Virus record (IMG/VR): IMGVR_UViG_3300008448_000244
Coordinates: 1 to 38,648 of that record
Strand: one strand, 5' to 3'
DNA: 38,648 bases
DNA from: a virus
The notes beneath the pieces are model-generated. The model saw only the letters and a list, made by a program, of their open reading frames with translations. It did not search any database and was not told the DNA's origin. Shown piece by piece: positions 5,421-25,606 of this stretch. Position 1 is the first letter of the stretch. Every line of letters begins with the position of its first letter. Position numbers and translations under genes: made by a program.

Positions 5421-5432
5421 CTCAACGCACGG
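5421..5432 (-). promoter_or_regulatory. Late element copy 1 (CCGTGCGTTGAG)
   Basis: Exact 12-mer, 29 bases upstream of the tail-spike ATG and directly after the stop of the 1473-residue internal virion protein (5436). No sigma70-type -10 follows. It is one of seven identical copies. Confidence 0.75.
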
Positions 5433-5435
5433 GGA

Positions 5436-8400
5436 TTACTCCCTGCCGCGCACGTCCTCTCGACGCCTGGTGCGATCCGCGGCCATCGCCTGCAGGTCAG
5501 CGGCATAGGTGTCGAGGATTTGGGCGCGAGCGTCGGAGCGATAGGCGCTGACCACGTCCTTGATGTACTCGGCCTTGCCGCCGCCGGGCCCGTCGGTGAG
5601 GCCGTAATAGAACTCACTGTCCGGGTGTGTGCCCGATGCGACAGCGTTCAGGTGCTCGAACGCAGGCTCGCCCGCCAGCCGCACATACTCGCTGTAGATG
5701 TCCGGGCGGTTCTTGAGAGTGACGCTTTCGCCCATGACGTCGATTGCGCGGGTCGGCATGGTGACGCTGACACCGTTGTTCAGGATCTCGAGGTCGATCG
5801 CGGAGCCGCCGCCGGCGCGGGTCTGCACGGGCATGACAGCGTCGTACACCGTGCCCAGTCCGGTCTGGTAGGTGCGCTCACGGCCCCACAGATCGCGCTG
5901 CGCGGGCAGATTGTCCGACAGGCCGGGCATGGTGTTCATCAGCGCCGTGACGACGTTGTGCGTCTCACGCAGGTACTCATCCTCGCCGCGCCGCGCCATG
6001 CGCAGGGCCGACGAGAATGGGATCGCGCCGGACGCGCGGGCCATGAGCATCTTCTCGCCCTTGGCTCCGGTCCGGTCGCCCATCGCCTCGACGATTTCCA
6101 TGACGCCGCGCAGCGAGGTCTTGTCGAAGAAGGCCGACGACATGGCCATGATGCCATGCACAATCGCCTCGTCCACCTCGCCGTTGCGGTCGGAGTCCCA
6201 GTCGCTGTTCTTGAACAGGTCGGCAAGATCGGCAACCAGGCCCATCCCCTGCCCGACCGGGTCCAGCCGCTCGAACGAGACCCAACGGTCGTTGATGCGC
6301 ACGCTGTAGGGTTGGAACACCGTGCCGCCATTCTCGTCGACACGCTGCAGTGCGTCGCGCTGGCCGGGGTTGCCGGGCCCGGCGCCCGTGAGGTCGCCGT
6401 CCATCGCCATGCCCATGAACAGCGAGTACATCGCCGTGCCCAGCGCCATCTGAGCCTTGGCCGTCTCGGCTGCCGCACCGCCCTCGGAAATGGCGTCGCG
6501 GAACCGGCGCATGAAAGGAGCCAGAGGCGAGTAGCGCAGGCCCGTGCTGATGAGGTTGGCGGGCGTCTTGATGAACGGGAACACGACGGTGCCAAACGGA
6601 ATCGGCGTCGGGTTGTTGTCCATGAAGCGGCGCAGATCGCCAAGCGCAGCAGCCATGCCCGGCGTCTCGCGGGTGAACGTGAGGTCGTGCATCTCAAACT
6701 CGGCGGCCTTGAGCATGTCGTCCGTCGGGTTGGTCAGCAGTTCGGCCATGCGAGCGCGAGCCACTTCACCCTCCAAGCCCTCGGCAGCCACCTTGCGGAA
6801 GGCCTGAGCGTGCAGTTCGCCGCGTGCCGCAATCGTCTTGAAGGCGTCGTCGGTCAGGGAGTTGATGTTGGACGGAGCCTCAAACACCATCTGCATGATG
6901 TCGAGCACGCGCCCCAGGGGCGAGTCCTCATTCACGCGCCACGCGCCCGCGCTCAGCGGACGGCCGGAGCCCAGGCCCGCCTCCTCGCGCTCGGCCCGCA
7001 ACTTGATGCCGGCAGGCGCGGCATCGTCCAGCCCCGGTGCCATGCCGCGGAAAACGCCCTGCTCACGCAAGGCGGTCGGAAGCATGCGGCCGTCGGTGCC
7101 TGCGATCCGCTGAGCCGCCTCAAACGGGTTGAGCCGGAAGATGTCGCGCACCGCCTGCTGATAGCCATGCACGAGCGCCGCAGCCTCGCCGACCTTGGTG
7201 GTCGCGCTGCCGCCGAACATGCCTGCCATGCGCGGGGAAATGGCGCGGGTAATCAGGTTCAGGCCCAGCATCATGCCGTTGCCCGCGACGTTGATCGTGG
7301 GCGTGCCGATGCCGGACAGGAGCGCGTTGGTATAGACCAGTTTGACGATCTCGCGGGTGCGCGCCATCGCGCCGCCGCGGACCATCTGGTTGAGTTCGCC
7401 GTCGCCCTTGGCAGCAGCCTCGCGGATCTTGCGCGCCAACTCGACCGCGCCGTTCGCGCCGCCCATGTCAGCGATGAGGGAGTCGACGTTGCGGAGATAG
7501 GATGCGGGCGTGCCCACCTCGGTCTTGAATGCGCCAAGCGCACGGCCGGCCTCAGCGCGTGCGCCGAAAAACTCGTTCTGGATAGCCGCATGCACGGACG
7601 TGGCGCGGCGGAACGCAAACTGGTTGGCCAGCGTCGGATTGTCCTCGACCGCCTTGGCGAGCGCGACAAGCTGCGTGCCGGACGAGTTCAGCGCCATGCG
7701 ATAGGCGACGATCTCCTCCTTGTTCATCGCCTGACCGGGGCGACGATCGGCCATAGACTGAACCCAGTCCATACGCCCGGCCGCCTCGACAGCCTGCGCA
7801 TCGGTCACGACGCCGCGACGAGCCAGGTTGACGTCTTTCGCCATGCGGTCAGCCATGCCGACAATAGCCGCCTGCACATCCTCGGGCGTGTTGATGCGGG
7901 CGAGGTTCAGGTCGAAGACGTTGTCGGCAGAGGCGGAGATGTCGCGGGGCGTGGTGCCCGCCGTCGCCACATAGGCGTCGTCGACCTTGGATTGGAACGG
8001 GGTGATGACGGGGTCGGCGCCACGCACACCAACACGCTCAGCGGCGGCGCGGGCGATTGCCTCGGGGGTCGGCGGAACCGCATCGTCAACATTGGCCAAG
8101 CGGACGCGAATGCTTGTCGGGCCACCATCCAGAGCGGCCATGACCCGGTGGTGGCCGTCGCCGATGTAGTCAAGGCCGTTGACGCGGACGATGAACGGAA
8201 GGTCCGTGTCGTCACCCCGGATGGGCGTCTGTGTCGCTTTGAAGTCAGCACCAACTGACTTTTGAGTGGCCACCAGAGACCGGGGATCAACCTCCACCAC
8301 ATCCCAAGATTTTGCGTCACTGATCGCGTTGCGAACGCGATGCTGGGCACGAGTCATGCCCCTGTTAAGAGCGCCGATAGCAACCCCGTTCATGGCGCCT

Positions 8401-9857
8401 GCGGTAGGAATTTCACCTGCAGCCGCCTCCGGCGCAGCCGGATCACGCACCACCCTAAACCGCGGCCCCTCGGGATTGCCCAGCGCCTCGCGCACGACGG
8501 CCTGCATCTCGACGCCCTTGGCCTCGGCCTCAGCCATCGCCATGACAGGATCTTCCTGCAGGCCCTCGCGAGCCGCGCCGGCACGAGCCTCATCCTTGGC
8601 AATGCGACCGGCGCGGAGGGCGCGGACGCCGCCCGCGATCACCTCAACCGCGCCACCCAGGATCGTACCCTCGACCGCATTCTTGAGGCGGCCGACAATC
8701 TCGGGGTCGTCGCCGTTCGCAGCCAACACCTCGAACATGGGGGCGATGGCGTCGGGGGCATGCTCGGCCAGCAGGTTGCTCAGCCGGGCCTCATTGCCGT
8801 CAAACGCGGTGAAGTCGGCCAGCGCGCCCTGCGCCATCGCCTTGCCGATCTGCCCGGCCTTGGTCGCCGTTTTCCAGCCGCGCAGCACGCGACCGCCGCC
8901 CGCAAAACCGGCGCCAAACTGCGAGATGCCCTCGATCACGCGGCCGGTCACGGACTCGGGGCGCTCAGCCTCGGACGTGGTGAAGCGGCCCGGAGCGGAC
9001 AGCAGGCTCGGAGCCTTGTTCGCCTCGGCCATCCGGCGCGCGGCGTCGTTCTGCGTGGTCAGGAAGATGCGGGCGGGCGTGGCGTCGTTGCCGTCAAAGC
9101 CCTCCCACATGAGCGTGCCGGGAACGTAGGTCTCGATCCAGTCGGCGGCCTCGTCCAGCAGGTCAAGCGTCTCGTTCACGCCGCGCTTCAAGCCGGACAT
9201 AACCGACTGCGCGCCCTCCATGAAGACACCCTTGGCCACATCACCCGCCACGGAACCCGCAGCGTTCACCACGCCCTCGGGCACCAGCGACGCCTGAATG
9301 ATCTCCGACTCTTCTTGGTCGAGAGCCAGGCTCTCACGCGCGGCCTGACGCTCGGCATAGGCGCTGTCCAGCGGCTGAGGCGCAGCGGGGGCGTAGCGGA
9401 ACCATGTCCCGTCAGCGGCCTGCTCATACCCGGCAGCGGTCAGGCTCTCGGGCGTGTCCTCGGGCGCAAGGCCCTGAGCGTTCGCCACAGTGTACTGGCG
9501 ACCGTTTGCGTCGGTGCGGACATCGCCCGGACCGGCACTGGCGGGGATGGGGCGCGGCACGGACGAGCGACCGTCAATGCCGACATGGACGTGGTCGCCC
9601 TCGTTCAGCCGCTCCTGAAAGTTCAGGCCGGAGTTGGCGAGGCGGGTATTGAGTTGAGCCATGCTCAGGCCGCTGCTGCCGGGCACGATGTCGAGCGCGC
9701 GGGCTCCGCCGTCCTCGCCCTCAAGCGTGTGCAGGCTTCCCGGCACACCGCCGACCTCTGCGTTGCGCTGAACGGTGCGTCGCGCGCTCGTGACCCGCGC
9801 CCCCGGCGCGATCTCAGCCAGACGGGCCCGGACCTCTGCTTCTGTCTCGATTGCCAT
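5436..9857 (-). CDS. Large internal virion (ejection) protein with N-terminal M15-like peptidase and embedded ParB-like domain
   Basis: A protein of 1473 residues in the place of T7 gp16. The N-terminus resembles peptidase M15-type murein enzymes: 'GGVPGSLHTLEG' then 'ARALDIVPG' and 'GDHVHVGI', with likely zinc ligands H43, D56 and H91. This suggests a virion-borne cell-wall hydrolase that helps DNA entry where T7 gp16 has a transglycosylase. Around residues 500-590 is a ParB/sulfiredoxin-like stretch with 'GDGHHRVMAALDGG', also known in other phage virion proteins. The remainder is Ala-rich and helical with no domain I recognise. The ATG directly follows the stop of the upstream gene. Confidence 0.85.
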   Translation of the reverse strand: MAIETEAEVRARLAEIAPGARVTSARRTVQRNAEVGGVPGSLHTLEGEDGGARALDIVPGSSGLSMAQLNTRLANSGLNFQERLNEGDHVHVGIDGRSSVPRPIPASAGPGDVRTDANGRQYTVANAQGLAPEDTPESLTAAGYEQAADGTWFRYAPAAPQPLDSAYAERQAARESLALDQEESEIIQASLVPEGVVNAAGSVAGDVAKGVFMEGAQSVMSGLKRGVNETLDLLDEAADWIETYVPGTLMWEGFDGNDATPARIFLTTQNDAARRMAEANKAPSLLSAPGRFTTSEAERPESVTGRVIEGISQFGAGFAGGGRVLRGWKTATKAGQIGKAMAQGALADFTAFDGNEARLSNLLAEHAPDAIAPMFEVLAANGDDPEIVGRLKNAVEGTILGGAVEVIAGGVRALRAGRIAKDEARAGAAREGLQEDPVMAMAEAEAKGVEMQAVVREALGNPEGPRFRVVRDPAAPEAAAGEIPTAGAMNGVAIGALNRGMTRAQHRVRNAISDAKSWDVVEVDPRSLVATQKSVGADFKATQTPIRGDDTDLPFIVRVNGLDYIGDGHHRVMAALDGGPTSIRVRLANVDDAVPPTPEAIARAAAERVGVRGADPVITPFQSKVDDAYVATAGTTPRDISASADNVFDLNLARINTPEDVQAAIVGMADRMAKDVNLARRGVVTDAQAVEAAGRMDWVQSMADRRPGQAMNKEEIVAYRMALNSSGTQLVALAKAVEDNPTLANQFAFRRATSVHAAIQNEFFGARAEAGRALGAFKTEVGTPASYLRNVDSLIADMGGANGAVELARKIREAAAKGDGELNQMVRGGAMARTREIVKLVYTNALLSGIGTPTINVAGNGMMLGLNLITRAISPRMAGMFGGSATTKVGEAAALVHGYQQAVRDIFRLNPFEAAQRIAGTDGRMLPTALREQGVFRGMAPGLDDAAPAGIKLRAEREEAGLGSGRPLSAGAWRVNEDSPLGRVLDIMQMVFEAPSNINSLTDDAFKTIAARGELHAQAFRKVAAEGLEGEVARARMAELLTNPTDDMLKAAEFEMHDLTFTRETPGMAAALGDLRRFMDNNPTPIPFGTVVFPFIKTPANLISTGLRYSPLAPFMRRFRDAISEGGAAAETAKAQMALGTAMYSLFMGMAMDGDLTGAGPGNPGQRDALQRVDENGGTVFQPYSVRINDRWVSFERLDPVGQGMGLVADLADLFKNSDWDSDRNGEVDEAIVHGIMAMSSAFFDKTSLRGVMEIVEAMGDRTGAKGEKMLMARASGAIPFSSALRMARRGEDEYLRETHNVVTALMNTMPGLSDNLPAQRDLWGRERTYQTGLGTVYDAVMPVQTRAGGGSAIDLEILNNGVSVTMPTRAIDVMGESVTLKNRPDIYSEYVRLAGEPAFEHLNAVASGTHPDSEFYYGLTDGPGGGKAEYIKDVVSAYRSDARAQILDTYAADLQAMAADRTRRREDVRGRE

Positions 9858-11941: not shown

Positions 11942-14046
11942 CAGTAGGTTACCTCCAAGGTGATCGACCGGACTTCCAGCGGGCCGCCGACCTCCTGCTC
12001 AATCTTGAACGTCGGGTATTTGGCGCGGCCCAGCGGACGGAAGCGACGCACGCCCGTGCTCGGACCGGCGGGGCCGCCGATATTGCCCTGCCAGCCGGAC
12101 GGGTCGCGGCCATTGCCCTTGAACGGACCGGTCGAGACGACGTCGACGTCAGCCCGCGTGATCTTGTAGTTGGGCCGCAGCCCCCGCTCACTGTCGACCG
12201 GAGGCACACCCTCGACCGTCAGCGTGAAGTCCAGGCCGACCTGCACGGCGGTGTAGCTCTCGGCGTCGACGCCCTGCAGCAGACCCGCCGCATTGACCGC
12301 GAAGTCGCCGATCTTGTTGTTGCCATTCCAGACGCCGACGGTGTGGTTGGCGTACAGCGGGACCGCCGTGGTGGTGGTGGCCAGACTGACCATGCCGTCC
12401 GCCCATGCCGTCGGGCTGAACTTCTCCAGCCGGTATTTGGTGACACCGCCAATGACGCGCTCAGCCACGGCATAGAGCGTGCCAGCCGCGTTGACGATCG
12501 AGCGCCAGGAGCCCGCCGTCGACCACAAGCCCCACGCGGAGAACGTCTGCTGGCGGCGATAGGTCAGGACCGCCACATCGCCGTCGCTGCGCAGGACTGG
12601 CACCAGCCGGTCGCTCTCGGTCCCGGCCGGGATCAGATCCATCTCCACCGGCACGCCCATCAGGTGATAGGCGAGCTCCGACAGATCGGCGATGTCCCAA
12701 CTCTTGCGGACATTGCCGGTCGGAATGGCGATCATCAGGCGACCGGACACCTGCTCGGTGAACATCATCCCCTCGCTGACCAGCAGCGGCGTGGGTGCGC
12801 CGGCGGCTTCCGGGCCGATCTTCAGCAGTTCAAAGTTCGTCGGCGAGAGCGGCGCGGCCACCTGCTCCGGCACGTAGGACGGGCCGGCCTCAGTGAACAG
12901 CAGCAGCTGCTCGGTCGATCCGAAATGGCGGAGCCCCAGACTGGACTCACGCCCCACGCGCTCGACAATGGCGTCCGTCTCAAGGCCGGATCCGGTGTTG
13001 AAGTCGCCGATGTCGCCGGTCGCGCTCGCCGCCATGACGCTTTGCGCCTGCGGGAAGTCGCCGATCAGCAGGCGGTTGCGGTGAAGCGAGCATGCGCCGG
13101 GGTAGCCGCGCGCGGTCGAGACCAGAGCCTCATCCCAATCGGTCGTCGCGGCGGGCGCGCTCGTCAACGTCACGGCGCTGATCGTGCTCTTGGCGGTCGG
13201 CCCGACCAGCGCCTCGGTCGCGTCAAAATAGGTGTAGCCGTCGACAAGCTGGACGGTCACCGTCGTGCTGCCGGGGACCGCAGACACAACGCCGCGGATC
13301 TGGCTGTCCTCGCCCTGGACCTCCTGACCAATCAGGAAGCCGGTCGAGGAGCCGACGGTCACGGTCAGTGTGGGATACAGACTGCCGATGACGGTGCCGG
13401 TCGCCGTATCCGCGTCGGTCACAGCGGTGACGGTGATCTCGACGCCGGTATAGCGCAGCCGCACGCCGACATGGTTCGCCGTGAAATGCGCCGCGCTCGT
13501 CTGCAGCGTCACGCCCGTGCCGGAATATGCCGACGGGGTCAGGCTCACGCCGCGCTCGGCAAATCGCCAGTAGGGCTGCGAGAGGGATCCGTTCAGGCCC
13601 GGCGCAAAGCTCAGGCCCGCAATCGACCACGTCCCGGCCGTGAGGGTCAGTTGCTGCGGGGCGAAGGCGCGGGAGGTGACGACAATCTTGCCGTCCTCAA
13701 ACGCGACCTGCATGGAGAACAGGTCCGCCGCGGCCCACGGGACGGAGGAGGAAATGGTCTGGACAATCGCGCCAGCCAGCGTGCGGACCTGAAACTTGCC
13801 GGCGCTAAACACGATGATCTGCGCATCGTCGGAGCCGACGCCGTAGGTCTCGATGCGCGACAGGCCGTCAAGCTCGGCAAGGTCGGTCGTGCCCCATCGA
13901 CGACGGAACCCGCCGCCTGCCTTCAGCAGCGCATTGCGGAACTGGCGCGCGCCCTCGTTCCTGACCTGCAGGTCCGTGCGCATGATGAACTCGTCGGCAA
14001 GCTCGCCGGCGGCCATGCTCGTGATGAACGGGAAAGTCCTAGCCAC
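11941..14046 (-). CDS. Tail tubular protein B (nozzle), gp12-like
   Basis: A beta-rich protein of 701 residues following tail tubular protein A. The early segment 'AGELADEFIMRTDLQVRNEGARQFRNALL' and the 'GGGFRRRWGT' box are typical of podovirus nozzle proteins, which form the distal tail tube. I chose GTG at 14046 ('VARTFPFITSMAAGE') because it overlaps the stop of the preceding gene by eight bases. A further N-terminal extension would be the shadow of that gene. A later ATG ('MAAGELADEF') is possible. No Shine-Dalgarno is visible, consistent with translational coupling. Confidence 0.85.
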   Translation of the reverse strand: MARTFPFITSMAAGELADEFIMRTDLQVRNEGARQFRNALLKAGGGFRRRWGTTDLAELDGLSRIETYGVGSDDAQIIVFSAGKFQVRTLAGAIVQTISSSVPWAAADLFSMQVAFEDGKIVVTSRAFAPQQLTLTAGTWSIAGLSFAPGLNGSLSQPYWRFAERGVSLTPSAYSGTGVTLQTSAAHFTANHVGVRLRYTGVEITVTAVTDADTATGTVIGSLYPTLTVTVGSSTGFLIGQEVQGEDSQIRGVVSAVPGSTTVTVQLVDGYTYFDATEALVGPTAKSTISAVTLTSAPAATTDWDEALVSTARGYPGACSLHRNRLLIGDFPQAQSVMAASATGDIGDFNTGSGLETDAIVERVGRESSLGLRHFGSTEQLLLFTEAGPSYVPEQVAAPLSPTNFELLKIGPEAAGAPTPLLVSEGMMFTEQVSGRLMIAIPTGNVRKSWDIADLSELAYHLMGVPVEMDLIPAGTESDRLVPVLRSDGDVAVLTYRRQQTFSAWGLWSTAGSWRSIVNAAGTLYAVAERVIGGVTKYRLEKFSPTAWADGMVSLATTTTAVPLYANHTVGVWNGNNKIGDFAVNAAGLLQGVDAESYTAVQVGLDFTLTVEGVPPVDSERGLRPNYKITRADVDVVSTGPFKGNGRDPSGWQGNIGGPAGPSTGVRRFRPLGRAKYPTFKIEQEVGGPLEVRSITLEVTY

Positions 14047-14680
14047 GCGGAGCCGACCGCGATGCGCGCGCACCACGCCAAGCCTCAGCCAGCGGCACGA
14101 ACTCAAACGCCACGCCCGGCTCCTGGCGCTTGTCGCGGATGATGGCGTCCCTCAGCATCGCCTCGGCATCACGCTTCAGCAGCCGGGCATCCTGCGGCTT
14201 GTCGCACAGGGCCTCGAGGAACAGCGCCTGCAGCCGCACCACGACCGCCTCGGACACATCGCCCGGCCACGCGCTTTCATCGGCGCGGGTGGTGGCAATG
14301 ACCTGCAGGGGGGTGTCGCGCTGGACGAGCAGGCGGTCGCCCTCGATCGCGTACTCGCCCGCGCGCAGGCGCGTACCGCCAATGCTGAAGTTGTTGTCGG
14401 ACGGCGCATAGACCACGCCGCGAATGTTCAGCACCTCAGCGGGCCAGACGAACGCATGGGTCCAGGGGCCCAGTTCGACGACGCCCTGATATGTCAGATC
14501 CAGCGTGCGCTTGGCGAACGTCCATGCGTGCCGGGCAAAGACCGACCGGACGATGCCCTCGTAGTTGGAGTTGGCGACGCGCGCCGCCGACTCGTCAGAG
14601 TCGAGCGACGAAATCTCCTCCTCACCAATGCGATGGAGGGCGGCCTGAATGACCTCGATCGGAGTGGCATAGGCGGACAT
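14039..14680 (-). CDS. Tail tubular protein A, gp11-like (gatekeeper)
   Basis: A protein of 213 residues. The start 'YATPIEVIQAALHRIGEEEISSLDSDES', then 'ARVANSNYEGIVRSVFARHAWTFAKR', is the classic podovirus gp11 pattern (a helix bundle that attaches the tail to the portal). It is the first gene of the tail block. It has its own late element 29 bases upstream (14710) and a strong terminator before that. A hairpin (14683-14695) sits two bases before the ATG and no Shine-Dalgarno is seen. Confidence 0.88.
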   Translation of the reverse strand: MSAYATPIEVIQAALHRIGEEEISSLDSDESAARVANSNYEGIVRSVFARHAWTFAKRTLDLTYQGVVELGPWTHAFVWPAEVLNIRGVVYAPSDNNFSIGGTRLRAGEYAIEGDRLLVQRDTPLQVIATTRADESAWPGDVSEAVVVRLQALFLEALCDKPQDARLLKRDAEAMLRDAIIRDKRQEPGVAFEFVPLAEAWRGARASRSAPRG

Positions 14681-14682
14681 TG

Positions 14683-14695
14683 GCGCAGGTTGCGC
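14683..14695 (-). promoter_or_regulatory. Start-abutting hairpin before tail tubular protein A
   Basis: A perfect inverted repeat GCGCA-GGT-TGCGC ends two bases before the ATG at 14680, the same geometry as at 5393 and 17165. Confidence 0.5.
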
Positions 14696-14709: not shown

Positions 14710-14721
14710 CTCAACGCACGG
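14710..14721 (-). promoter_or_regulatory. Late element copy 2 (CCGTGCGTTGAG)
   Basis: Exact 12-mer, 29 bases upstream of the tail tubular protein A start and immediately downstream of the U-run of a minus-strand terminator. This terminator-then-element order is the strongest hint that the element restarts transcription. Confidence 0.8.
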
Positions 14722-14757
14722 AAAAAAAAGACCCCCCGCCGTTTCCAGCGAGGGGTC
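14722..14757 (-). terminator. Rho-independent terminator after capsid genes
   Basis: On the minus strand a 10-bp stem (14748-14757 with 14730-14739, one G-U pair that only works in the minus-strand RNA) has an 8-base loop and is followed by eight U (14722-14729). It closes the scaffold-capsid-cement operon and separates it from the tail genes. Confidence 0.85.
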
Positions 14758-16467: not shown

Positions 16468-17163
16468 TTAGCCGTAGAGTCGGGTTGCGATGTCCGGCAT
16501 GGCCGGGGTTTTGTTGGGCACAGCCGACATGGCCGGGCCCTGAATCTTTGAGACAAGCGCCTCGAGCGCGATGACCGCGTCCGCGCTGCGCATCTGCGAG
16601 CGCAGGGCCTCCGCCGAGTCCGCGCCGATGGCGGCGATGACCTGACCGTGCAGGGCGGCGGTGCGCTCCTTGTGCCCGGCGCCCAGCTTGGTCTGCTCGG
16701 CGGCGATGAAGGCGGCGTCGGCCTCCTGCTCAGCCTTGCCGGCAGCAAGCTCTTGCGCGGCGTAGGCCTGCAGGATCTTGGAGACGGCGGCTTGCGGCAG
16801 TCCGGCCTCATGGAACGCGGGCAGGATCGCCTTGACGAGCGGGTCTTCCGGGTCGAACGCGACGGGGTTGCCGTCCAGGCCGACAACCGGCTCAGGCAGG
16901 GCAAGCTCGTACTTGTCGGCGCTCTCGGGAACGCCGTCGCGGGCGGAGGCTTGCGCGGCCTCAAGTTCGGCGAGGCGGGCATAGGCCTCCGGCTTGATGC
17001 CGGCGGCGTCATCCCAGTAGGCGTCAGGCAGTCCGTCGGGCCGCACCGGAGCCGCAGCAGCAGCCGGTTCAGCGGCAGCCATGAGCTCGGGCGCAGGCGA
17101 GTTCGGAACGCTCGTGGTTACGGGCGCCGGGATCGGTTCAGCAGGAGCGGTGGTATCCGTCAT
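16468..17163 (-). CDS. Scaffolding / head-assembly protein
   Basis: A protein of 231 residues directly before the capsid gene. It has an Ala/Pro-rich start, an acidic middle with 'PDAYWDDAAGIKPEAYARLAELEA', and helical segments such as 'EQTKLGAGHKERTAALHGQVIAAIGAD', like podovirus head-assembly (scaffold) proteins. I chose ATG 17163 over an upstream in-frame start at 17199 because it is 31 bases after the late element and directly follows the hairpin at 17165. Confidence 0.8.
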   Translation of the reverse strand: MTDTTAPAEPIPAPVTTSVPNSPAPELMAAAEPAAAAAPVRPDGLPDAYWDDAAGIKPEAYARLAELEAAQASARDGVPESADKYELALPEPVVGLDGNPVAFDPEDPLVKAILPAFHEAGLPQAAVSKILQAYAAQELAAGKAEQEADAAFIAAEQTKLGAGHKERTAALHGQVIAAIGADSAEALRSQMRSADAVIALEALVSKIQGPAMSAVPNKTPAMPDIATRLYG

Positions 17164-17164
17164 T

Positions 17165-17180
17165 CCGCGACGATGCGCGG
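17165..17180 (-). promoter_or_regulatory. Start-abutting hairpin before scaffold gene
   Basis: CCGCG (17165-17169) pairs with CGCGG (17176-17180) and ends one base before the ATG at 17163. Confidence 0.45.
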
Positions 17181-17194
17181 CGATTGCGTTGACC

Positions 17195-17206
17195 CTCAAC
17201 GCACGG
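17195..17206 (-). promoter_or_regulatory. Late element copy 3 (CCGTGCGTTGAG)
   Basis: Exact 12-mer, 31 bases upstream of the scaffold ATG. Its TGA is the stop codon of the preceding gene (17196). Here the element also forms a palindrome with a neighbouring inverted GCGTTGA (17186-17192), spaced by three bases. Confidence 0.75.
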
Positions 17207-17456
17207 AGGGATTCGCCTCCGCCATGTCCAGCAGGCGCACATAGGCTCGCCTCTCGCCCTCGGCCTCACGCAACTGGGCATCGCTCGCGGCGGGGTGCGT
17301 GGGCTGCATGGCCGTGGCGCGGAGCCATGCAATCAGGTGCCGACCGTCGGGCGTCGAGGCGAGCGAGATCATTGCGGCCTGGATCGAGTCTGCGGCCGGG
17401 CCCGTCTCGACAACGCCGTCCGTGCGTCGAAGGGAGTCGAACGTGCGTCGCGTCAC
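17196..17456 (-). CDS. Bbp19-like small protein between portal and scaffold
   Basis: A protein of 86 residues. The 'STPDGRHLIAWLRATAMQ' stretch followed by 'REAEGERRAYVRLLDMAEANP' resembles the Bbp19 family of BPP-1-like phages: a 'GRRF' helix, then 'EG.R..G..L...I' and a final acidic helix. Its molecular role is not known to me. It overlaps the portal stop by four bases (ATGA) and its stop codon lies inside late element 3. Confidence 0.65.
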   Translation of the reverse strand: MTRRTFDSLRRTDGVVETGPAADSIQAAMISLASTPDGRHLIAWLRATAMQPTHPAASDAQLREAEGERRAYVRLLDMAEANPSVR

Positions 17457-18982: not shown

Positions 18983-19290
18983 CAGTACAGGACCGCAAGA
19001 CTGTTGCCGAAGCGCGAGGACGTTCCGCCCCCGCCTCCGCTTGAGCCGAACCCGGAGCCGCCGCCCATGCCGGTCGACATCGTTCCGGCAGGCGCTGCAG
19101 CAGGGCCGCTGTAGAGGGGCACAGAGCCGCCGCCGATCGTGCCGGTGCGACGCAGGCGGCGCACGGTGCTGCCCAGCAGCAGGGCTTGGGTTTCTTCCGT
19201 GCGGGCGCTCTCGGCGCGCTTTTGCTCACGCTCGCGCGCGGCCTTGGCGGCCGGATCCTCCTCGGGAAGCGTGACCTTGGGAGTCCTCAT
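18982..19290 (-). CDS. Small Gly-rich protein before portal
   Basis: A protein of 102 residues. The N-terminal half is charged and helical ('DPAAKAAREREQKRAESA') and the C-terminal half is almost wholly Gly/Ser ('GMGGGSGFGSSGGGGG'). Proteins of this design are frequent immediately upstream of podovirus portals, with no function known to me. I chose ATG at 19290 because it overlaps the upstream stop (ATGA). Late element 4 lies 66 bases upstream inside the preceding gene. Confidence 0.65.
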   Translation of the reverse strand: MRTPKVTLPEEDPAAKAAREREQKRAESARTEETQALLLGSTVRRLRRTGTIGGGSVPLYSGPAAAPAGTMSTGMGGGSGFGSSGGGGGTSSRFGNSLAVLY

Positions 19291-19709
19291 GCCTGCTCGC
19301 CTACGAACGCGGGACGCGCACCGTGAGCGATCAAATCGCGGTATAGCGCCTCCGGCCTCAACGCACGGGACGGCACGGCAATGAGATGGGCGACAGCCGG
19401 CGAGCACCAGAACCCGGCACGGACCGCGGGCGCGGGCGGCTCGGCGGTCGGCGAGAAGGCGACGATCGTGCGGTCGGCGGGCAAGGCCGCAACCCATGCG
19501 TCCATCTGCGACGGCGACATGGCATGGATCAGGGTGCGGCGAAGGGTGACGTCATAGACCAGCCACACGGCCTGATCCGGGCAGTAGCCGAATGCGGCGA
19601 CGTGGCGGAAGCCTGGGCGACACAACGACCACCACCAGTGCGGCCGCTCGCCGTCGTAGAACGCGACATACCACTCGACCGGCATGGCAGCATCGGCGAC
19701 GGAGATCAT
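19287..19709 (-). CDS. Conserved phage protein between terminase and portal
   Basis: A protein of 140 residues rich in Trp and aromatics: 'WYVAFYDGERPHWWWSLCRPGFRHVAAFGY'-type start and 'AVWLVYDVTLRRTLIHAM'. I recognise this as a conserved phage hypothetical that accompanies podovirus large terminases, without known function. It overlaps the terminase stop (ATGA) and the next start (ATGA). Its 3' part contains late element copy 4, read in frame as SRALR. Confidence 0.6.
   Translation of the reverse strand: MISVADAAMPVEWYVAFYDGERPHWWWSLCRPGFRHVAAFGYCPDQAVWLVYDVTLRRTLIHAMSPSQMDAWVAALPADRTIVAFSPTAEPPAPAVRAGFWCSPAVAHLIAVPSRALRPEALYRDLIAHGARPAFVGEQA
19357..19368 (-). promoter_or_regulatory. Late element copy 4 (CCGTGCGTTGAG), within a gene
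   Basis: Exact 12-mer inside the 3' end of the 140-residue gene, 66 bases upstream of the next start (19290). It is the only copy fully inside coding sequence and the only one without a clear start-abutting hairpin. It may serve the portal gene pair. Confidence 0.5.
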
Positions 19710-21337
19710 CGCCCCCTCGACGCCCGGAACAGCCCGCCTCGCGCGCCGCGGTCAAACACGCGCGCCTGCGTCTTGGTCTCGACAACCGCCTTGGCCCGCT
19801 GCGAACCGAACAGGAGATTGCCGCCGTGCCCCATGCCAAGGCAGAGATACCCGGCCGCTTCACACGGGTGTGAGTAGGCGTTCTTGACGATGTCGCGCGA
19901 CGTGAACTGGCCGAAGCTGGAGTTGGTGACCTTGAACTGGTAGCCGCCGCTGAACCCGGCCACGAGCATCCGGCACTCAGGGCTGACCAGCAGGGCCTGA
20001 TAGCCGTCGACCTGCTGGGTCAGCAGTTGGTCGACCACCTCGCGGCGGCCACCGGGCCCGGTGAATCGGTTTGCCCCAGGCGCGCGCATGACTGGCATGC
20101 CGTTCTGGCGGAAGATGTCGAACGCGGTCTTCTCCTCAGCCTGCCCGCGAATGTCGCCGCCGGGGTCGCCGAAAAACTTGACCTTGGACGGGTCCACACT
20201 TGGGAACCGGCGAAGGATGTACTCCTTGACCATCGGCGCGAACGTCACGGCGCCAACGTCCTCGGCATACAGTTCGCCGATCACCAGCACCCGCCCCCGG
20301 AACGTCTGGCCAAAGACAGCCGCCGGAGTCATGCCGAAGTCGAGGCCGACGTAGAGCTCAAGCTCAGGCTTGAACTCGATCGGTCCGGCCGCGACGTGGC
20401 TATTGCGCTCGTTCGCATTCCTGAACAGCGGATGCACCGCCTTGCCGCGCATGACGGACGCAGCGATGTTGCGGCAGTTGGCGTCGATCCACTGAGTCGT
20501 GACCCCGTTGATCTTCTTGGGGTAATAGTCGGGCCTGAGCCAGCGCAGGTTCTCCGCGCCAGGGTTGACGCAATACTCGACCTCGTCGCCCGGATTGAGC
20601 GGCTTGAGGCCGGACGCCTTCAACTCCTCATCCAGCACCAGCAGGGCGGGTGGCTGGACGTACAGGCTCCACTCAGCCGGGCGTTGGTGTCGACGAACCT
20701 CGTCCGGCGAAAAATGGTCCGGCATGGGCGTCTTGCCGAACATGATCGGGGCCCAGTGCAGGTTCTCAGGCGCGTTCATGTCGGCGATGCCGCCGGACCA
20801 CGAGCATCCGCCGTTCTTGACCGAGGGGTAGCGGCCGCAACGCGACAGGCCCTCAGAGACCATCAGCAGCGGAATGTACTGCGTCTCGTTAAAGTAGATG
20901 CCGGTCAACTGCAGGGAGCGCAGCTTCTTGACGTCGTCCTCCTTGTCGAGCGCAAGGAAGATGAACTCCGCCTCGATGTCGCCGTGGCTCATGTAATAGG
21001 TGAACGGCGGCGACATCTGCAGCGTGCCGAACCCGCCCTCAGACTCCTTGCCCTCGGGAAACAGGTCGACGAATGAGCGGATCGTCGTGGTCTTGAGCTC
21101 AGGAAACGTCTGACGGACAATGGCCCAGCGGCTACGTCGCCGGCCGTCACGCTGCAGCGGCTGCTCGCTCGCGTGGCGGAACAGGCGCATCAGCGCGCAG
21201 TCGGTCTTGCCGGATCCGATGGGCCCCTGGATCAGGTCGAAGTCGCCGTTCGACATGAGGAACGCCGACAGAATCGCGCCGTCCGGCTCGAATACGATAG
21301 GCTCGCGCGGTGGTTGGTTTGCTGCCTTGCGGGCCAT
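19706..21337 (-). CDS. terL: Terminase large subunit
   Basis: A packaging motor of 543 residues. The ATPase domain has Walker A GPIGSGKT at 38-45 and a Walker-B-like 'GIYFNE' at 148-153. The RNase-H-type nuclease domain shows 'LYVGLDFG' (Asp 335) and 'GDPGGD' at 392-397 as metal-binding acidic positions. It cuts concatemeric DNA and threads it through the portal. It lies five bases after the 249-residue gene. The small subunit is unusually far away, at 26761-27297, with the lysis genes between. Confidence 0.95.
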   Translation of the reverse strand: MARKAANQPPREPIVFEPDGAILSAFLMSNGDFDLIQGPIGSGKTDCALMRLFRHASEQPLQRDGRRRSRWAIVRQTFPELKTTTIRSFVDLFPEGKESEGGFGTLQMSPPFTYYMSHGDIEAEFIFLALDKEDDVKKLRSLQLTGIYFNETQYIPLLMVSEGLSRCGRYPSVKNGGCSWSGGIADMNAPENLHWAPIMFGKTPMPDHFSPDEVRRHQRPAEWSLYVQPPALLVLDEELKASGLKPLNPGDEVEYCVNPGAENLRWLRPDYYPKKINGVTTQWIDANCRNIAASVMRGKAVHPLFRNANERNSHVAAGPIEFKPELELYVGLDFGMTPAAVFGQTFRGRVLVIGELYAEDVGAVTFAPMVKEYILRRFPSVDPSKVKFFGDPGGDIRGQAEEKTAFDIFRQNGMPVMRAPGANRFTGPGGRREVVDQLLTQQVDGYQALLVSPECRMLVAGFSGGYQFKVTNSSFGQFTSRDIVKNAYSHPCEAAGYLCLGMGHGGNLLFGSQRAKAVVETKTQARVFDRGARGGLFRASRGR

Positions 21338-21342
21338 GCAGG

Positions 21343-22092
21343 TTACCGCGTCTGGGCGGCCATCTTCATCGAGAAGAAGTCCACGTCGAGATTGCGGGCG
21401 TTGGCCGAGGTCGGCACAAGATGAAAGCCCTGCACCATGTTGGTCGACGCCGCGGGCACCGTAGCGCCGGACGCCACAACCTCGGCTCCGCCATTGACCG
21501 AAAAGCCGACCGAGGTGGCGCTGATCTGGCGGATCTTGAACTTGTACCAGGTGTCCGCTGCCGCCGCGACGCCGAGATCCACACGGGCCTGCGACCCCGA
21601 CTGGCGCACGACGCCGAACCAGTTGGTGTCAGCGGTCATCTTCTCGATATAGGCCCCGTTGACGGGCGGGTTGGCGGTCCAGTCGTTGCAGACGCCAATG
21701 CGAATGTCGACAGCCGCCACCGTCGTGATCGGCTCGACGATCCACGTCATCTCGCTCCATTGCTCGAAGCGCATATTGACCGCCGTGCCGCCACCGCCCG
21801 GAAAAGCGGAGGCGACCGTGCCAGAGACAGCGGTGCTTGCGCGCCGGCAGGTTCCGGGGTGGCCAGCTTCCGACGCCACAAGGTTCCACGTTCCGTTCGT
21901 AAAGCCCCAGCCAAGCTCGCCGATCTCGCCGGACTCGGTCGAGGCGAACAGGAACTCGTCGATGATGACGGTCGCGGCCTGCGGATCCGACCGGTCAAGC
22001 GGGACCGGGACGCCGGCAGCGTCGACAATCTGGACCCGGAAGTCAGGAAGCCCGGAGCCCGAGTTGGCGAAGTTGTAGTCGGGCAGAGGCAT
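21343..22092 (-). CDS. Beta-sandwich (lectin/LamG-like) virion protein, putative
   Basis: A protein of 249 residues with regular beta-strand pattern and few charged helices: 'WNLVASEAGHPGTC', 'MRFEQWSEMTWIVEP', 'DTWYKFKIRQISATSVGFSVNGG' and 'TNMVQGFHLVP'. This resembles concanavalin-like jelly-roll domains of virion surface proteins; the fold is my inference and no family is certain. It is the first gene after late element 5, and its start-adjacent hairpin carries the GGAG ribosome site partly in the loop. A decoration or fibre role is plausible. Confidence 0.6.
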   Translation of the reverse strand: MPLPDYNFANSGSGLPDFRVQIVDAAGVPVPLDRSDPQAATVIIDEFLFASTESGEIGELGWGFTNGTWNLVASEAGHPGTCRRASTAVSGTVASAFPGGGGTAVNMRFEQWSEMTWIVEPITTVAAVDIRIGVCNDWTANPPVNGAYIEKMTADTNWFGVVRQSGSQARVDLGVAAAADTWYKFKIRQISATSVGFSVNGGAEVVASGATVPAASTNMVQGFHLVPTSANARNLDVDFFSMKMAAQTR

Positions 22093-22112
22093 GCGGGGCT
22101 CCAGTTTCCCGC
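22093..22112 (-). promoter_or_regulatory. Start-abutting hairpin with ribosome site in loop
   Basis: GCGGG (22093-22097) pairs with CCCGC (22108-22112). It touches the ATG at 22092, and the GGAG ribosome site lies in the loop and upper stem. Confidence 0.5.
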
Positions 22113-22136
22113 ACTACGCCGCCCGCGCCCCCACGC

Positions 22137-22148
22137 CTCAACGCACGG
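22137..22148 (-). promoter_or_regulatory. Late element copy 5 (CCGTGCGTTGAG)
   Basis: Exact 12-mer two bases after the stop of the HEXXH-protein gene (22151) and 44 bases upstream of the next start. Confidence 0.75.
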
Positions 22149-22150
22149 GC

Positions 22151-22504
22151 CTAGTGCTTCCACCCGTTCAGGTGCGCCATCTCGTGCCGCAGGAGCTTGC
22201 CGCAATAGGCGTCCAGGTCAGCCTGACAGTGCGGCAGCAGGATCACGCGCTGCGGCATGAACGTGCAGGCCATGATGATGTCGCGGGCCGGAAGCGGCTG
22301 TCCGCCGCACGCGGCATGCACCTGTCGCGGGGTGCCGACGATGACGACAAACGGCTGGGTCGGCGCGTGGTCGTATTCAGGCGGAGGCGCCTCAACCGCC
22401 TCGGGCGAGGGGACAAAGGTGCGGACTTCCTGCATGGAGGCGGAGGGGCCAGGCATGGTGGTTATGAGCGTGACAGCCGAGGCTGCGATCAGGGTTTTCA
22501 GCAT
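22151..22504 (-). CDS. Small exported protein ending in HEXXHXXGXXH zinc motif
   Basis: A protein of 117 residues. The first 22 residues look like a signal peptide (a Lys, then 'LIAASAVTLITT', then small residues). Four cysteines (66, 80, 93, 101) could form two periplasmic disulfides. The last eleven residues, 'HEMAHLNGWKH' (107-117), fit HEXXHXXGXXH exactly, the zinc-binding pattern of metzincin-type metalloproteases. Small phage proteins with HExxH...NGW motifs occur elsewhere with unknown function. ATG 22504 has a strong AGGAGG ribosome site, so an earlier in-frame start is unlikely. An envelope protease role is inference. Confidence 0.75.
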   Translation of the reverse strand: MLKTLIAASAVTLITTMPGPSASMQEVRTFVPSPEAVEAPPPEYDHAPTQPFVVIVGTPRQVHAACGGQPLPARDIIMACTFMPQRVILLPHCQADLDAYCGKLLRHEMAHLNGWKH

Positions 22505-22505
22505 G

Positions 22506-22529
22506 CGCCCCTCCTGCATGGATGGGGCG
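22506..22529 (-). promoter_or_regulatory. Start-abutting hairpin with ribosome site in loop
   Basis: CGCCCC (22506-22511) pairs with GGGGCG (22524-22529). It lies one base from the ATG at 22504, with AGGAGG split between loop and stem, so folding would hide the ribosome site. Confidence 0.55.
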
Positions 22530-22545
22530 TCTGACAGGGGTTACG

Positions 22546-22557
22546 CTCAACGCACGG
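22546..22557 (-). promoter_or_regulatory. Late element copy 6 (CCGTGCGTTGAG)
   Basis: Exact 12-mer whose TGA is the stop codon of the preceding 67-residue gene (22547). It lies 41 bases upstream of the exported HEXXH protein start. Confidence 0.75.
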
Positions 22558-22750
22558 GGCGGTGAAAGCCAATGGGCGCGCGGCCGCTCATGCGCGCACG
22601 GTGCTCGGCCCGGTCGCGGTCAATCTGAAAGCAGCGGTGGGCGGCAGGGCTGACGGATTTGAACCGCGGCGTCTCAACCTCTTGCAGGGGCTCGGCGCTG
22701 CCCACGCCAAACCAGATGATCCAGTCGTCGTCGTCCCAATCGTCCATCAC
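22547..22750 (-). CDS. Small hypothetical protein, acidic N-terminus
   Basis: A protein of 67 residues beginning 'MMDDWDDDDWIIWFG' and turning basic ('DRDRAEHRARMSGR'). No domain recognised. It overlaps the upstream gene's stop by four bases and ends inside late element 6, so it closes the lysis-side transcript. Confidence 0.5.
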   Translation of the reverse strand: MMDDWDDDDWIIWFGVGSAEPLQEVETPRFKSVSPAAHRCFQIDRDRAEHRARMSGRAPIGFHRPVR

Positions 22751-22929
22751 CCCAACTCCGGGTCAAGATCGTCCAGCGTGCCGGGATCCGGCCGCAGATC
22801 GGTTGCCGACCTGGTGAACGGGCGGCCAAGGCGCGCGGCCCATCGGGCGCGCTTCGCAGAGGCGCGACGGTTCTTGGCCAGTTGTTCCGCCTGCCATGCG
22901 GCGTGCTCGGGCGTGCCGGGGATAATCAT
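22747..22929 (-). CDS. Small basic hypothetical protein
   Basis: A protein of 60 residues, 'MIIPGTPEHAAWQAEQLAKNRRASAKRARWAAR...', with a basic helix and an acidic tail. ATG 22929 overlaps the TGA of the metallophosphoesterase-like gene (ATGA), which decides the start over a longer frame. No family recognised. Confidence 0.55.
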   Translation of the reverse strand: MIIPGTPEHAAWQAEQLAKNRRASAKRARWAARLGRPFTRSATDLRPDPGTLDDLDPELG

Positions 22930-24143
22930 GCGGCGACCATCTCGGGCGTGACCGTGACCGATCCGACCTGACCCCACCGGCTGTGGTAGGTGTAGGCCGT
23001 CGCCTGCCGCTCACTGTGCCAGCCGCCCCGCGCCGCATAGGCGTCTCGTGCAGCCAGGGTCGAGTGCTGCACGACCTTCATGCCGCTGTGTTCCTTGATG
23101 TCCTCGTGGTGCCGGTGGCCGCAATGGGCAAACCGCTTGGTCGTCGCGCCCCACTCGCGCGGGTATTGCGCGGCGAACAGGAGGGGCAGGCCCTCGTTTT
23201 TCTTGAGGTGGCCGTGGTGGAACGCCAGCATCGTCTCACCGTGGACGTGGACGTAGTAGGGCAACTCGTTGTCGATCACCCGGACGCGCGGCTCGTTCTC
23301 GTACAGGGCGGCAAACATGATCCGCAGCCAGACGCTTGAGGCGAGATCGTGGTTGCCCTCGGCCATGACGACAAACACGGTCTTGTGCCGGGACAGGGCA
23401 AGGTCAATCACGCGACGCAGGATGCGGATTGCCGTGCGGACCATCTTGGAAAACCGACCATCGGCATCCAGCACATGGCCGTGCCCCGGCGTCACCGGCA
23501 GCAGACCATCGTAGTGGAGGAAGTCGCCAAGTTGGTTGACGACGCAGGTGTCCGCCAGCGGCGATCGCTCGACCATCTGCTCAAAGCAGCCGACCAGCGT
23601 GTCCTCGGCAATCTGCATGTCCCAGTCAGCACCGCCCTCCTTGCGCCAGGCCAGCATGCCGACATGGGAATCGGTCAGGGTGAACAGGTTGCACAGCGCC
23701 TCGTTCGTGTTCGCCGGCGGAGCTATGGAGGCGAGGCGGGGGACTTGCTCGCTCAGGGCGGCAAAGGCCTCCCGCAGCATCTCCGCCCGGCGCTCGTCAT
23801 CCGCACTGGACTTGTCCCAGGACAGCACCTCGACCCGCTGGCCTGTCACCGGATCCAGCTTGCGCAGCACGGACCGGCCTTTGAGCTTGAACCCATCCGG
23901 CACCTGTTCGGTCATGCCGTACTCAGGCGCATGCCCCTGTGCGGCGCCGCGCGCCTTGATGCCCGCCAGCAGACGCCGGAAGCTCCGCTCGTTCTTTCCC
24001 AGATGCCGCGCCGCATGCTGGACGCTGCCAATGTCAATGACGGCTTGAACCGCCTCGCGCTGAACGTCTGTCTCGCAAAACGCCAGCAGGCCCTCGGTCG
24101 GTATCGCGTCCTGCGGCGGGACAAAGCGGAGCGTCATCCGCAC
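22926..24143 (-). CDS. HTH plus calcineurin-like metallophosphoesterase protein
   Basis: A protein of 405 residues. Residues 25-65 resemble a winged or simple helix-turn-helix ('ETDVQREAVQAVIDIGSVQHAARHLG'). The C-terminal part has metallophosphoesterase motifs in order: 'TDSHVG' (158-161), 'GDFLHYDG' (206-), 'GNHD' (263-266), then 'HGH' and 'CGHRHH'. Such proteins recur in podovirus late regions under several names; I do not know their substrate. The position between the spanin and terminase genes fits a late role in DNA or nucleotide handling. Its start overlaps the Rz1 stop by ten bases. Confidence 0.8.
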   Translation of the reverse strand: MRMTLRFVPPQDAIPTEGLLAFCETDVQREAVQAVIDIGSVQHAARHLGKNERSFRRLLAGIKARGAAQGHAPEYGMTEQVPDGFKLKGRSVLRKLDPVTGQRVEVLSWDKSSADDERRAEMLREAFAALSEQVPRLASIAPPANTNEALCNLFTLTDSHVGMLAWRKEGGADWDMQIAEDTLVGCFEQMVERSPLADTCVVNQLGDFLHYDGLLPVTPGHGHVLDADGRFSKMVRTAIRILRRVIDLALSRHKTVFVVMAEGNHDLASSVWLRIMFAALYENEPRVRVIDNELPYYVHVHGETMLAFHHGHLKKNEGLPLLFAAQYPREWGATTKRFAHCGHRHHEDIKEHSGMKVVQHSTLAARDAYAARGGWHSERQATAYTYHSRWGQVGSVTVTPEMVAA

Positions 24144-24400
24144 AGCCCCCGCGTCGTCCGGGCCCGGCTCTCATTCTCCCGGCCCCAGTCCAGAACCTCG
24201 GCCACCCACCCCAGCATCTCGCGGGTGGCGTCCTTCTCGGCGTCGGTAACGGGAGCCACCAGCCCGGCGCCTTCCGGCAGCGCCGGCTCCGCCCGGACCT
24301 CAGTGCAGAGGCTAGGCGGGAGGAGCGGCGGGCTGGAGGGCTTCGCGCAACTCGCCAGCAGGAACAAGCTCGCGCACAGCGCAGCCTTGCGGATCAACAT
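24134..24400 (-). CDS. Rz1: Rz1-like outer-membrane spanin lipoprotein
   Basis: A protein of 88 residues with a lipoprotein signal: two basic residues, 'ALCASLFLLASC' and lipobox Cys18, followed by a Pro-rich stretch ('PSSPPLLPPSL'). Its first third is encoded within the 3' end of the Rz gene in another frame, the usual nested spanin pair. It would join the inner-membrane spanin across the periplasm and disrupt the outer membrane at lysis. Confidence 0.8.
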   Translation of the reverse strand: MLIRKAALCASLFLLASCAKPSSPPLLPPSLCTEVRAEPALPEGAGLVAPVTDAEKDATREMLGWVAEVLDWGRENESRARTTRGLCG

Positions 24401-24641
24401 GGGTCGGCCTCTCGATGATGGTCTCGATGCGCCGGGCCGACTGACGGGCCTCGTTCACGCGGGACAGGCACTGGTCGGCCTGGATCTGCGCATCCGCCTT
24501 GGCGGTGTCGCGGTACTCACGCAGCAGTTTCAGTTCGGCATTCGCAATCGCCAGCCCCGCCTTGAGCCGGTCAGCGCGGAACGTCTGCACGCCCGTCGCC
24601 AGCAGCGCCACAGCCAGCAGCGCCGCCAGCACGCGGGTCAC
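24312..24641 (-). CDS. Rz: Rz-like inner-membrane spanin
   Basis: A protein of 109 residues with an N-terminal membrane segment ('VLAALLAVALLATGVQTF') followed by a long helical periplasmic part ('AIANAELKLLREYRDTAKADA') and a Pro-rich end. It lies after the endolysin (ATGA overlap) and overlaps Rz1 by 89 bases. This is the expected layout of a two-component spanin. Confidence 0.8.
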   Translation of the reverse strand: MTRVLAALLAVALLATGVQTFRADRLKAGLAIANAELKLLREYRDTAKADAQIQADQCLSRVNEARQSARRIETIIERPTHVDPQGCAVRELVPAGELREALQPAAPPA

Positions 24642-25066
24642 TTGGCAAGCTCAAAGTGCGGCGAATCGGTCTCACCCTTCTCGCGGGCCCGGCCGTCCTG
24701 ATCCCAGTCGCCGCCCCAACGGATCTTGACGCCCAACTGCTTGGCCGCCTCCCGCATCGCCCGCGCGACCTTGTCAAACTGACCGGGGTCTTTCCAGTCA
24801 TACGGCTCCGGCAGCAGGTCGACCGCACGGCCAAACCCATCCGCCTGCTTGAAGTGGTTGGACTTGAGCGTCCACGTCACCTTTTTGCCCGGCTTGGTCC
24901 GCCCCTGCGCATACAACTCGGCCTGACGCTCCGGCGTGCGGACACCCTCAATCACCATGAAATCGGCCGGGCTGATCTCAATGGCACGGGTGACGACCGC
25001 GACCATGTCAGGATGCACGCCAACCAGATTACGCCTGGAGCGGTCGGACAGACGGTACGGCATCAC
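24638..25066 (-). CDS. Endolysin, M15 (VanY/L-alanyl-D-glutamate) peptidase
   Basis: A protein of 142 residues resembling T5/A500-type endolysins: 'EGVRTPERQAELYAQGRT' at 40-57, 'SNHFKQADGFGRAVDLLP' with zinc ligands H71 and D83, and 'DSPHFELA' with H137. No signal peptide, so it needs the holin just upstream to reach the periplasm. It cleaves peptidoglycan cross-bridge peptides in that family. Confidence 0.92.
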   Translation of the reverse strand: MMPYRLSDRSRRNLVGVHPDMVAVVTRAIEISPADFMVIEGVRTPERQAELYAQGRTKPGKKVTWTLKSNHFKQADGFGRAVDLLPEPYDWKDPGQFDKVARAMREAAKQLGVKIRWGGDWDQDGRAREKGETDSPHFELAK

Positions 25067-25302
25067 GCCACTCCCCTGATTTTCTCAATCGTCTTCAAAC
25101 CCAGCATCGCCGCGCAGAAGGTAAGCCAGGCGACCAGATACCCCTCAGCCATCGGCTTGCCGATCATGTGACCCAGCCCAGCCGCATAGACCAGACCCGC
25201 CACCACGACCCACCCGGCCGTCGGACGCCACAGGCGGTCAAACATCTGCCAGGCCCAGTGCGCCCGCATGGGGTGATCCGGCAGGGCGGTGTGGTCGGTC
25301 AC
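25063..25302 (-). CDS. Holin candidate with two membrane spans
   Basis: A protein of 79 residues. Hydrophobic stretches at about 29-46 and 54-71 are separated by a short turn with 'GKPMAEGY', with a charged C-terminus. The type matches the phage holins of the 3TM superfamily kind. It directly precedes and overlaps the endolysin, which supports the call. Confidence 0.75.
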   Translation of the reverse strand: MTDHTALPDHPMRAHWAWQMFDRLWRPTAGWVVVAGLVYAAGLGHMIGKPMAEGYLVAWLTFCAAMLGLKTIEKIRGVA

Positions 25303-25532
25303 GGACGCTCTCCCCGCTCAATGCGGTCAAGCTGCTCTTTCATGGCCTGCGTCCGCTCATCCAGCCGGGCAAGCGTCCCGTCAGCCAGCGGCGCGACAAT
25401 GCGCTCAAGGTTTGACACCCGCTGATTGAGCCCGCCACCCCAAAAGATGAGCGTGGCCGCTTGGACGATGAGGGCAATAATCACGCCGATCATCGACCAG
25501 TTCAGTTTGCGGGCATCGGCATGCAGGGTCAC
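25299..25532 (-). CDS. Single-span membrane coiled-coil protein of the lysis cassette
   Basis: A protein of 77 residues with one membrane segment ('MIGVIIALIVQAATLIFWGGG') followed by a heptad-rich helix ('LNQRVSNLERIVAPLADGTLARLDERTQAMKEQLDRI'). It could be a second holin or antiholin; the sequence does not decide. The start is GTG 25532, with GAGG upstream, and it overlaps the stop of a short upstream ORF (25529-25564). Confidence 0.65.
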   Translation of the reverse strand: MTLHADARKLNWSMIGVIIALIVQAATLIFWGGGLNQRVSNLERIVAPLADGTLARLDERTQAMKEQLDRIERGERP

Positions 25533-25564
25533 GGGCAGGCCTCAGTTTGCGCGCGGTTTTTCAT
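25529..25564 (-). CDS. Leader ORF of 11 codons before the lysis cassette
   Basis: ATG 25562-25564 has GAGG about 7 bases upstream and encodes 11 residues (MKNRAQTEACP). Its TGA overlaps the GTG start of the membrane protein (GTGA). The ATG lies 30 bases after late element 7, matching the 29-31 base spacing at copies 1-3. It may couple or delay translation of the lysis cassette. Evidence is positional only. Confidence 0.4.
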   Translation of the reverse strand: MKNRAQTEACP

Positions 25565-25594
25565 CCCCGCACCTCGCCGCGCACACCCCCCACC

Positions 25595-25606
25595 CTCAAC
25601 GCACGG
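25595..25606 (-). promoter_or_regulatory. Late element copy 7 (CCGTGCGTTGAG)
   Basis: Exact 12-mer two bases after the stop of the 84-residue gene (25609), upstream of the lysis cassette. A possible stem GCGCGG/CCGCGC (25551-25556 with 25577-25582) lies downstream and encloses the leader ORF start. Confidence 0.75.

Follow-up and report, generated by a model that had tools for sequence, protein, structure and literature searches.

What a short asymmetric word does when it is repeated without change along the late genes of a podovirus is the question raised by the 38,648-nt stretch of DNA analysed here (the window, taken at its full length). A sequence-only reading had placed the 12-mer CCGTGCGTTGAG at 5421, 14710, 17195, 19357, 22137, 22546 and 25595, and a search of both strands confirmed these seven exact copies, all on the minus strand, which is the late-gene strand, with no further copy at zero or one mismatch anywhere in the window. 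In 100 dinucleotide shuffles scored at up to one mismatch, the mean number of copies was 0.46 and the largest 4, so that seven was never reached (0/100), and the next commonest unrelated 12-mer on the minus strand of the window has 3 copies. The window carries T7-like structural genes together with an integrase, a primase and a helicase, and its early region is without the box.

The spacings between the element and the following start, as given in the same reading, hold as well. Copy 1 (5421..5432, on the minus strand like all features below unless stated otherwise) precedes a tail-fibre-like gene (1789-5391) at 29 nt, where it would form the upstream half of a promoter. Copy 2 (14710..14721) stands at 29 nt from a tail gene (14039-14680) and is indeed the one directly following a terminator, as it abuts the intrinsic terminator of the upstream transcription unit (14730..14757, with a 12-pair stem and a T8 tail). 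Copy 3 (17195..17206) lies 31 nt before a gene in scaffold position (16468-17163), and copy 7 (25595..25606), the putative first late promoter, lies 30 nt before the ATG of a short leader ORF followed by gene 25299-25532. Longer distances are found for copy 5 (22137..22148), 44 nt from gene 21343-22092 with its Shine-Dalgarno sequence, and for copy 6 (22546..22557), 41 nt from a gene in holin position, for which relatives favour the start with AGGAGG at 22504; this AGGAGG begins 30 nt past the 10-mer GTGCGTTGAG. Copy 4 (19357..19368) is located within gene 19287-19709, with the next start 66 nt on. At the start point assigned to copy 7 (25564, minus strand), most relatives continue with ATG[A/C]AAACGCGCGC, a conserved leader-ORF start upstream of the first late gene. 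ARAGORN predicts a tRNA-Cys gene at 22643-22715 (minus strand); as Rfam gives no match there at gathering score, the gene may be degenerate or may have been predicted by chance.

A search with the head-tail connector identified 28 near relatives at 60-80% identity, of which 23 contain the exact 12-mer, always in the late direction. The 10-mer occurs 2-8 times per record in the 15 larger relative records, nearly always on one strand. When upstream regions were picked by protein similarity of the gene and not by motif, the exact 10-mer was found before the holin-position gene in 17/17 relatives, before the large terminase subunit gene (TerL) in 27/29, before the leader-ORF gene in 14/16, before the tail gene in 23/28 and before the fibre gene in 6/7, the seventh having one mismatch. 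Before the scaffold gene, 17 of the 38 sites are exact and 19 more carry one mismatch (GTGCGTTGAA). Most relatives have the box before TerL; in the window TerL lacks it, and a box stands before the gene just upstream of TerL. No exact site precedes orthologues of genes that have no copy in the window, such as those for the major capsid protein, connector, exonuclease and primase. Most of the variation concerns the final two bases, and the core is accordingly taken as GTGCGTTG.

The copy within a gene is informative on the level at which this conservation acts. Copy 4 encodes R-A-L-R, with the codons always CGT GCG TTG AGR in 14 distinct sequences, which share ancestry and are not 14 independent trials. 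In this phage TTG accounts for 5.4% of leucine codons and AGG for 3.6% of arginine codons, giving a usage product of about 1e-4 per sequence, and synonymous variation is present in the flanking codons on both sides. As judged from these alignments, the codon choice is not explained by the protein sequence alone; together with the conservation of the box at orthologous junctions, it shows that selection acts on the DNA.

The spacing between the box and the start codon falls into two classes. Genes without a good Shine-Dalgarno sequence have their ATG 29-32 nt past the 10-mer (30 non-redundant cases), and genes with a good one start at 41-53 nt, with AGGAGG or GGAG beginning at least 30 nt past the 10-mer. 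A single start point, some 30 nt past the 10-mer, would fit both classes. When +1 is set at the A of the ATG, an A is present at -11 in 21/30 cases and a T at -7 in 23/30, counts that include orthologues and are therefore not independent, so that binomial values are merely indicative. A-11 and T-7 are the two key bases of the sigma70 -10 element. On the same assumption of a leaderless start, the first T of the TTG within the box falls at -34 to -37. These features are those of a sigma70-type promoter of the alphaproteobacterial kind (a TTG-type -35 position and a -10 with A-11 and T-7), of leaderless mRNAs (no Shine-Dalgarno sequence and a spacing that places the predicted +1 on the start codon) and of activator-dependent late promoters, as the conserved box near -35 extends beyond the sigma hexamer with a GTGCG that is invariant upstream of TTG.

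The -10 is weak and degenerate in GC-rich phages, that of the window included. The sequence-only reading had seen no -10-like sequence after the element, which turns out to be wrong: when aligned on the predicted +1, all seven window copies are followed by a degenerate -10 with T at -7 and GC at -13/-12. By alignment on the ATG, the predicted -10 is CAACGT (5398..5403) for copy 1, CAACCT (14687..14692) for copy 2 and the CATCGT region (17170..17175) for copy 3, with +1 at the A of the ATG (5391, 14680 and 17163, respectively) and a leaderless message in each case. CGATTT (19333..19338) after copy 4 has its T at -7 if +1 is set 30 nt after the 10-mer. For copies 5 and 6, CGTAGT (22113..22118) and CCCCAT (22522..22527) would go with a +1 at about 22106 and 22515, whereas CGAGGT (25571..25576) after copy 7 would place it at the A of the leader ATG (25564).

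The box is also found far from this group. Remote relatives, with TerL and connector at about 23-40% identity at the lowest, keep two to five co-oriented boxes; they came from a scan of IMG/VR in which the spacing was itself part of the search pattern. A second search relied only on the similarity of connector proteins and gave a marine set of AT-rich contigs of 34-47% GC. In this set (0.94 Mb, counting five L206-type contigs) GTGCGTTG has 162 forward and 19 reverse occurrences, and in 13 box-rich contigs the ratio is 50:0. TTT precedes the box in these AT-rich relatives, the best -10-like hexamer peaks 21 nt past it, and at several sites the box is followed after about 20 nt by CATATT and, a few bases further on, by ATG. 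The 8-mer is kept in phages of 34 to 69% GC. The GenBank phage Mwe-JY08 (PP395640) has 7 forward boxes and 1 reverse, and two of its deposited gene starts lie exactly 30 nt past the 10-mer; positions -12 to -7 there read CACCGT or CATCGT. No enrichment of the box was found in three connector-related phages (Pelagibacter phage Hodr, Methylophilales phage MEP301 and one Vibrio phage), and a simple word search of the more distant Mesorhizobium and Phyllobacterium prophages gave nothing clear. Repeated matches in unrelated low-GC contigs, which are without the promoter spacing, look like chance or conserved coding sequence.

Taken together, the bias in strand and position, the persistence of the box at junctions between orthologous genes and the constraint at the DNA level support the earlier proposal of a phage-specific late promoter or activator site, as do the TTG at the -35 position, A-11 and T-7. 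It is considered probable, with some assurance, that the host sigma70 polymerase and a phage activator fire late promoters marked by the box. Each copy would be the upstream half of such a promoter, in which GTGCGTTG sets a TTG at the -35 position of a host sigma70-type polymerase and the invariant GTGCG just upstream of it may be read by a phage-encoded activator. A degenerate -10 would follow 16-19 bp further, of the form xAxxxT in GC-rich phages and CATATT-like in AT-rich ones, and transcription would begin about 30 nt past the 10-mer. Four window starts stand exactly at the predicted +1 and those messages would therefore be leaderless; the remaining messages would carry a leader, which in two cases includes a ribosome-binding site. 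In this way 6-8 separate late transcripts would be fired by a phage that has no RNA polymerase of its own. That transcription starts at these points, that an activator is needed, which protein it is and that the candidate described below binds the box are all predictions from sequence.

Small phage proteins that read a conserved box near -35 and redirect the host polymerase are known, as with P2 Ogr, T4 MotA and Mu C. The promoters described here resemble theirs in the conserved box near -35 and in the pairing of the host polymerase with a proposed phage protein, but the box and the candidate protein are different, and 6-8 dispersed promoters with several leaderless messages are predicted.

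The box might instead be read by the host alone, through plain RpoD, through an alternative sigma factor or through some host regulator, the phage having borrowed an existing regulon without any activator of its own. The host group is probably Caulobacteraceae, because a Brevundimonas MAG contains a closely related prophage. Of the RpoD motifs in Caulobacter, 93% have their first base at -34 to -37 relative to the mapped start (PMC4287350), and leaderless mRNAs are common in this bacterium (375; PMC4117421). The phage set is similar to these RpoD (sigma73) promoters (PMC4287350, PMC4117421) in its TTG at -34 to -37, its -10 with A and T and its many predicted 5' ends at start codons, so that TTG and A-11/T-7 lie where host RpoD expects them, and Caulobacteraceae genomes are rich in sigma factors (23 Sigma70_r4 matches in one of them, G016). 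However, the invariant GTGCG before TTG is not demanded by plain RpoD, and the phage set is phage-specific and restricted to late genes. Many scattered or host copies, which would have counted against the sequence-only reading, were not seen: clusters of box plus ATG occur in one of 299 Caulobacteraceae genomes, the carrier of a related prophage, whereas the 298 others have 0-2 per genome, without enrichment. The constancy of the 8-mer over the whole range of GC content, and presumably over different hosts, also argues against this explanation, which is regarded as unlikely.

A repressor site that silences late genes in the lysogen was also considered. The stoperators of cluster A mycobacteriophages are 13-bp asymmetric repressor sites that lie in one orientation in short intergenic gaps and are spread over the genome. 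Such sites, mentioned in PMC3203893, share with the box their asymmetry, single orientation and location in short intergenic gaps; the phage of the window bears an integrase, and its XRE-type protein (see below) could be a repressor. Here, however, the sites are few, restricted to the late strand with none in the early region and placed at a fixed promoter spacing, and the XRE gene stands among late-direction genes rather than in the opposite-strand block with the phrog_14076 regulator. Silencing is accordingly given a low probability, well below that of an activated promoter.

The fixed distance to start codons without a Shine-Dalgarno sequence could point to an RNA element of the 5'-UTR acting on translation, and the sequence-only reading had drawn a parallel with the start-associated sequences of cluster K mycobacteriophages. 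These are likewise phage-specific, repeated words of 13 bp near gene starts, but they stand at 3-7 bp from the start and accompany non-structural genes (PMC3203893), whereas the box lies 29-66 nt from the start of late genes, which makes the parallel a poor fit. Genes with a Shine-Dalgarno sequence have the box further off, with that sequence beginning at or beyond the same point, copy 4 is 66 nt off inside a gene, Rfam gives no match in the window, and A-11/T-7 is a promoter pattern. Since the element would sit upstream of the predicted transcript, this possibility is very improbable.

The late region of T7 has several co-oriented promoters. A promoter for a single-subunit RNA polymerase of the T7 kind is hardly credible here, in spite of T7-like structural genes and several co-oriented, dispersed late promoters, one of them directly past a terminator. 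PF00940 gave no match in the window or in four large, near-complete relatives, in a search whose T7 positive control worked. Initiation by an enzyme of this type would be expected within the box or immediately past it, and the sigma70-type anatomy with A-11/T-7 before the ATG would stay unexplained.

For the preferred reading, a sigma70 promoter with a phage activator, the reader of the box is likely to be phage-encoded, because the box is unchanged across phages of very different base composition. The best candidate is an XRE-type helix-turn-helix protein of 145 aa (27297..27734, minus strand; HTH_31, E 2.8e-6), the gene of which precedes the late region, is encoded on the same strand as the late genes and is present in 13/13 near relatives tested. 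Homologues exist in three remote box-bearing records (Mwe-JY08, L293 and G320), and in Mwe-JY08 the gene stands just upstream of the first box. The recognition-helix region (AGWSDRYVTK in the window) stays similar down to 41% overall identity and can be recognised as AGWADGYTGK in G320, AGAPDRYYNK in L293 and AGVPSGYTGK in Mwe-JY08. Weak homologues are found in marine contigs, two of which (L250 and L243) have 0-1 boxes. The AlphaFold model of the protein is of low confidence (mean pLDDT 53). From this co-occurrence, the chances that the XRE protein is the late activator are put at roughly even. Upstream of its gene, 27846-27924 contains a 28-nt inverted repeat, 89% complementary, with the arms 23 nt apart.

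Other proteins were considered for this role. The gene p178 is as universal as the XRE gene among the relatives tested and, from a weak phrog_2538 match, probably encodes the small terminase subunit; p178 and a gene with an OmpR-type domain may still be alternatives to XRE, the latter, nearly universal but strongly diverged, being disfavoured. GcrA was rejected, being missing in two box-bearing relatives, as was the DnaA-C gene, which is patchy among relatives. A phage sigma factor was likewise discarded, with two weak Sigma70_r4 matches in phages versus 23 in the host genome, and the weak match of the window falls on the GcrA-type helix-turn-helix.

These last genes belong to a segment between helicase and primase (34322-36016, minus strand) that encodes DNA-binding domains of Caulobacter cell-cycle regulators, namely two OmpR/CtrA-type winged helices (35549-36016 and 35265-35552; weak, below the Pfam cut-off), a full-length GcrA (34807-35292; E 3e-16) and a DnaA C-terminal domain (34322-34810; E 9e-8). 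GcrA is known in phiCbK-like phages (PMC3556154), and this combination may be new. Two small conserved proteins of about 69 and 57 aa (33952-34158 and about 34155-34330, minus strand) are encoded before the primase in nearly all relatives.

Elsewhere in the window, two exact TGTGGTCGCATATA repeats, 35 bp apart, flank a TTGACA at 28096-28144, in the AT-rich gap between divergent gene blocks, and possibly represent an early promoter with its operators. An ArdA antirestriction protein is encoded at 28992-29558 (plus strand; E 2e-34). Just past the integrase gene, 46 bp (1650-1695) match, at 94% identity, a segment without annotation in mycobacteriophage Giles and its relatives, possibly a tRNA-type attachment core. 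Among the relatives, G007 (IMGVR_UViG_3300046000_007143, 60,786 bp; L038-L040) has a second partial XRE gene as well as another set of early genes, which looks as though pieces from two related phages had been put together.

No earlier description of the box was found in the literature searched. Promoters of this general kind, sigma70-type with a likely phage activator, are known; here the sequence is new, the layout is T7-like with several promoters, leaderless messages are predicted and the spread is wide. A broader proposal, held tentatively and at somewhat less than even odds, is that podoviruses without their own RNA polymerase share a widespread and so far undescribed late-transcription system, in which one XRE-family activator and one GTGCGTTG box would serve several dispersed late promoters with largely leaderless messages, kept across very different GC contents and hosts. 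For a large group of mostly uncultured podoviruses, the box provides a sequence-defined late promoter with start prediction within a few bases, names a candidate regulator of the late genes and may aid late-gene annotation in metagenomic contigs. It also suggests that a T7-like late region can fire from many promoters by means of the host enzyme and a phage helper, and that leaderless messages can serve for the expression of structural genes.
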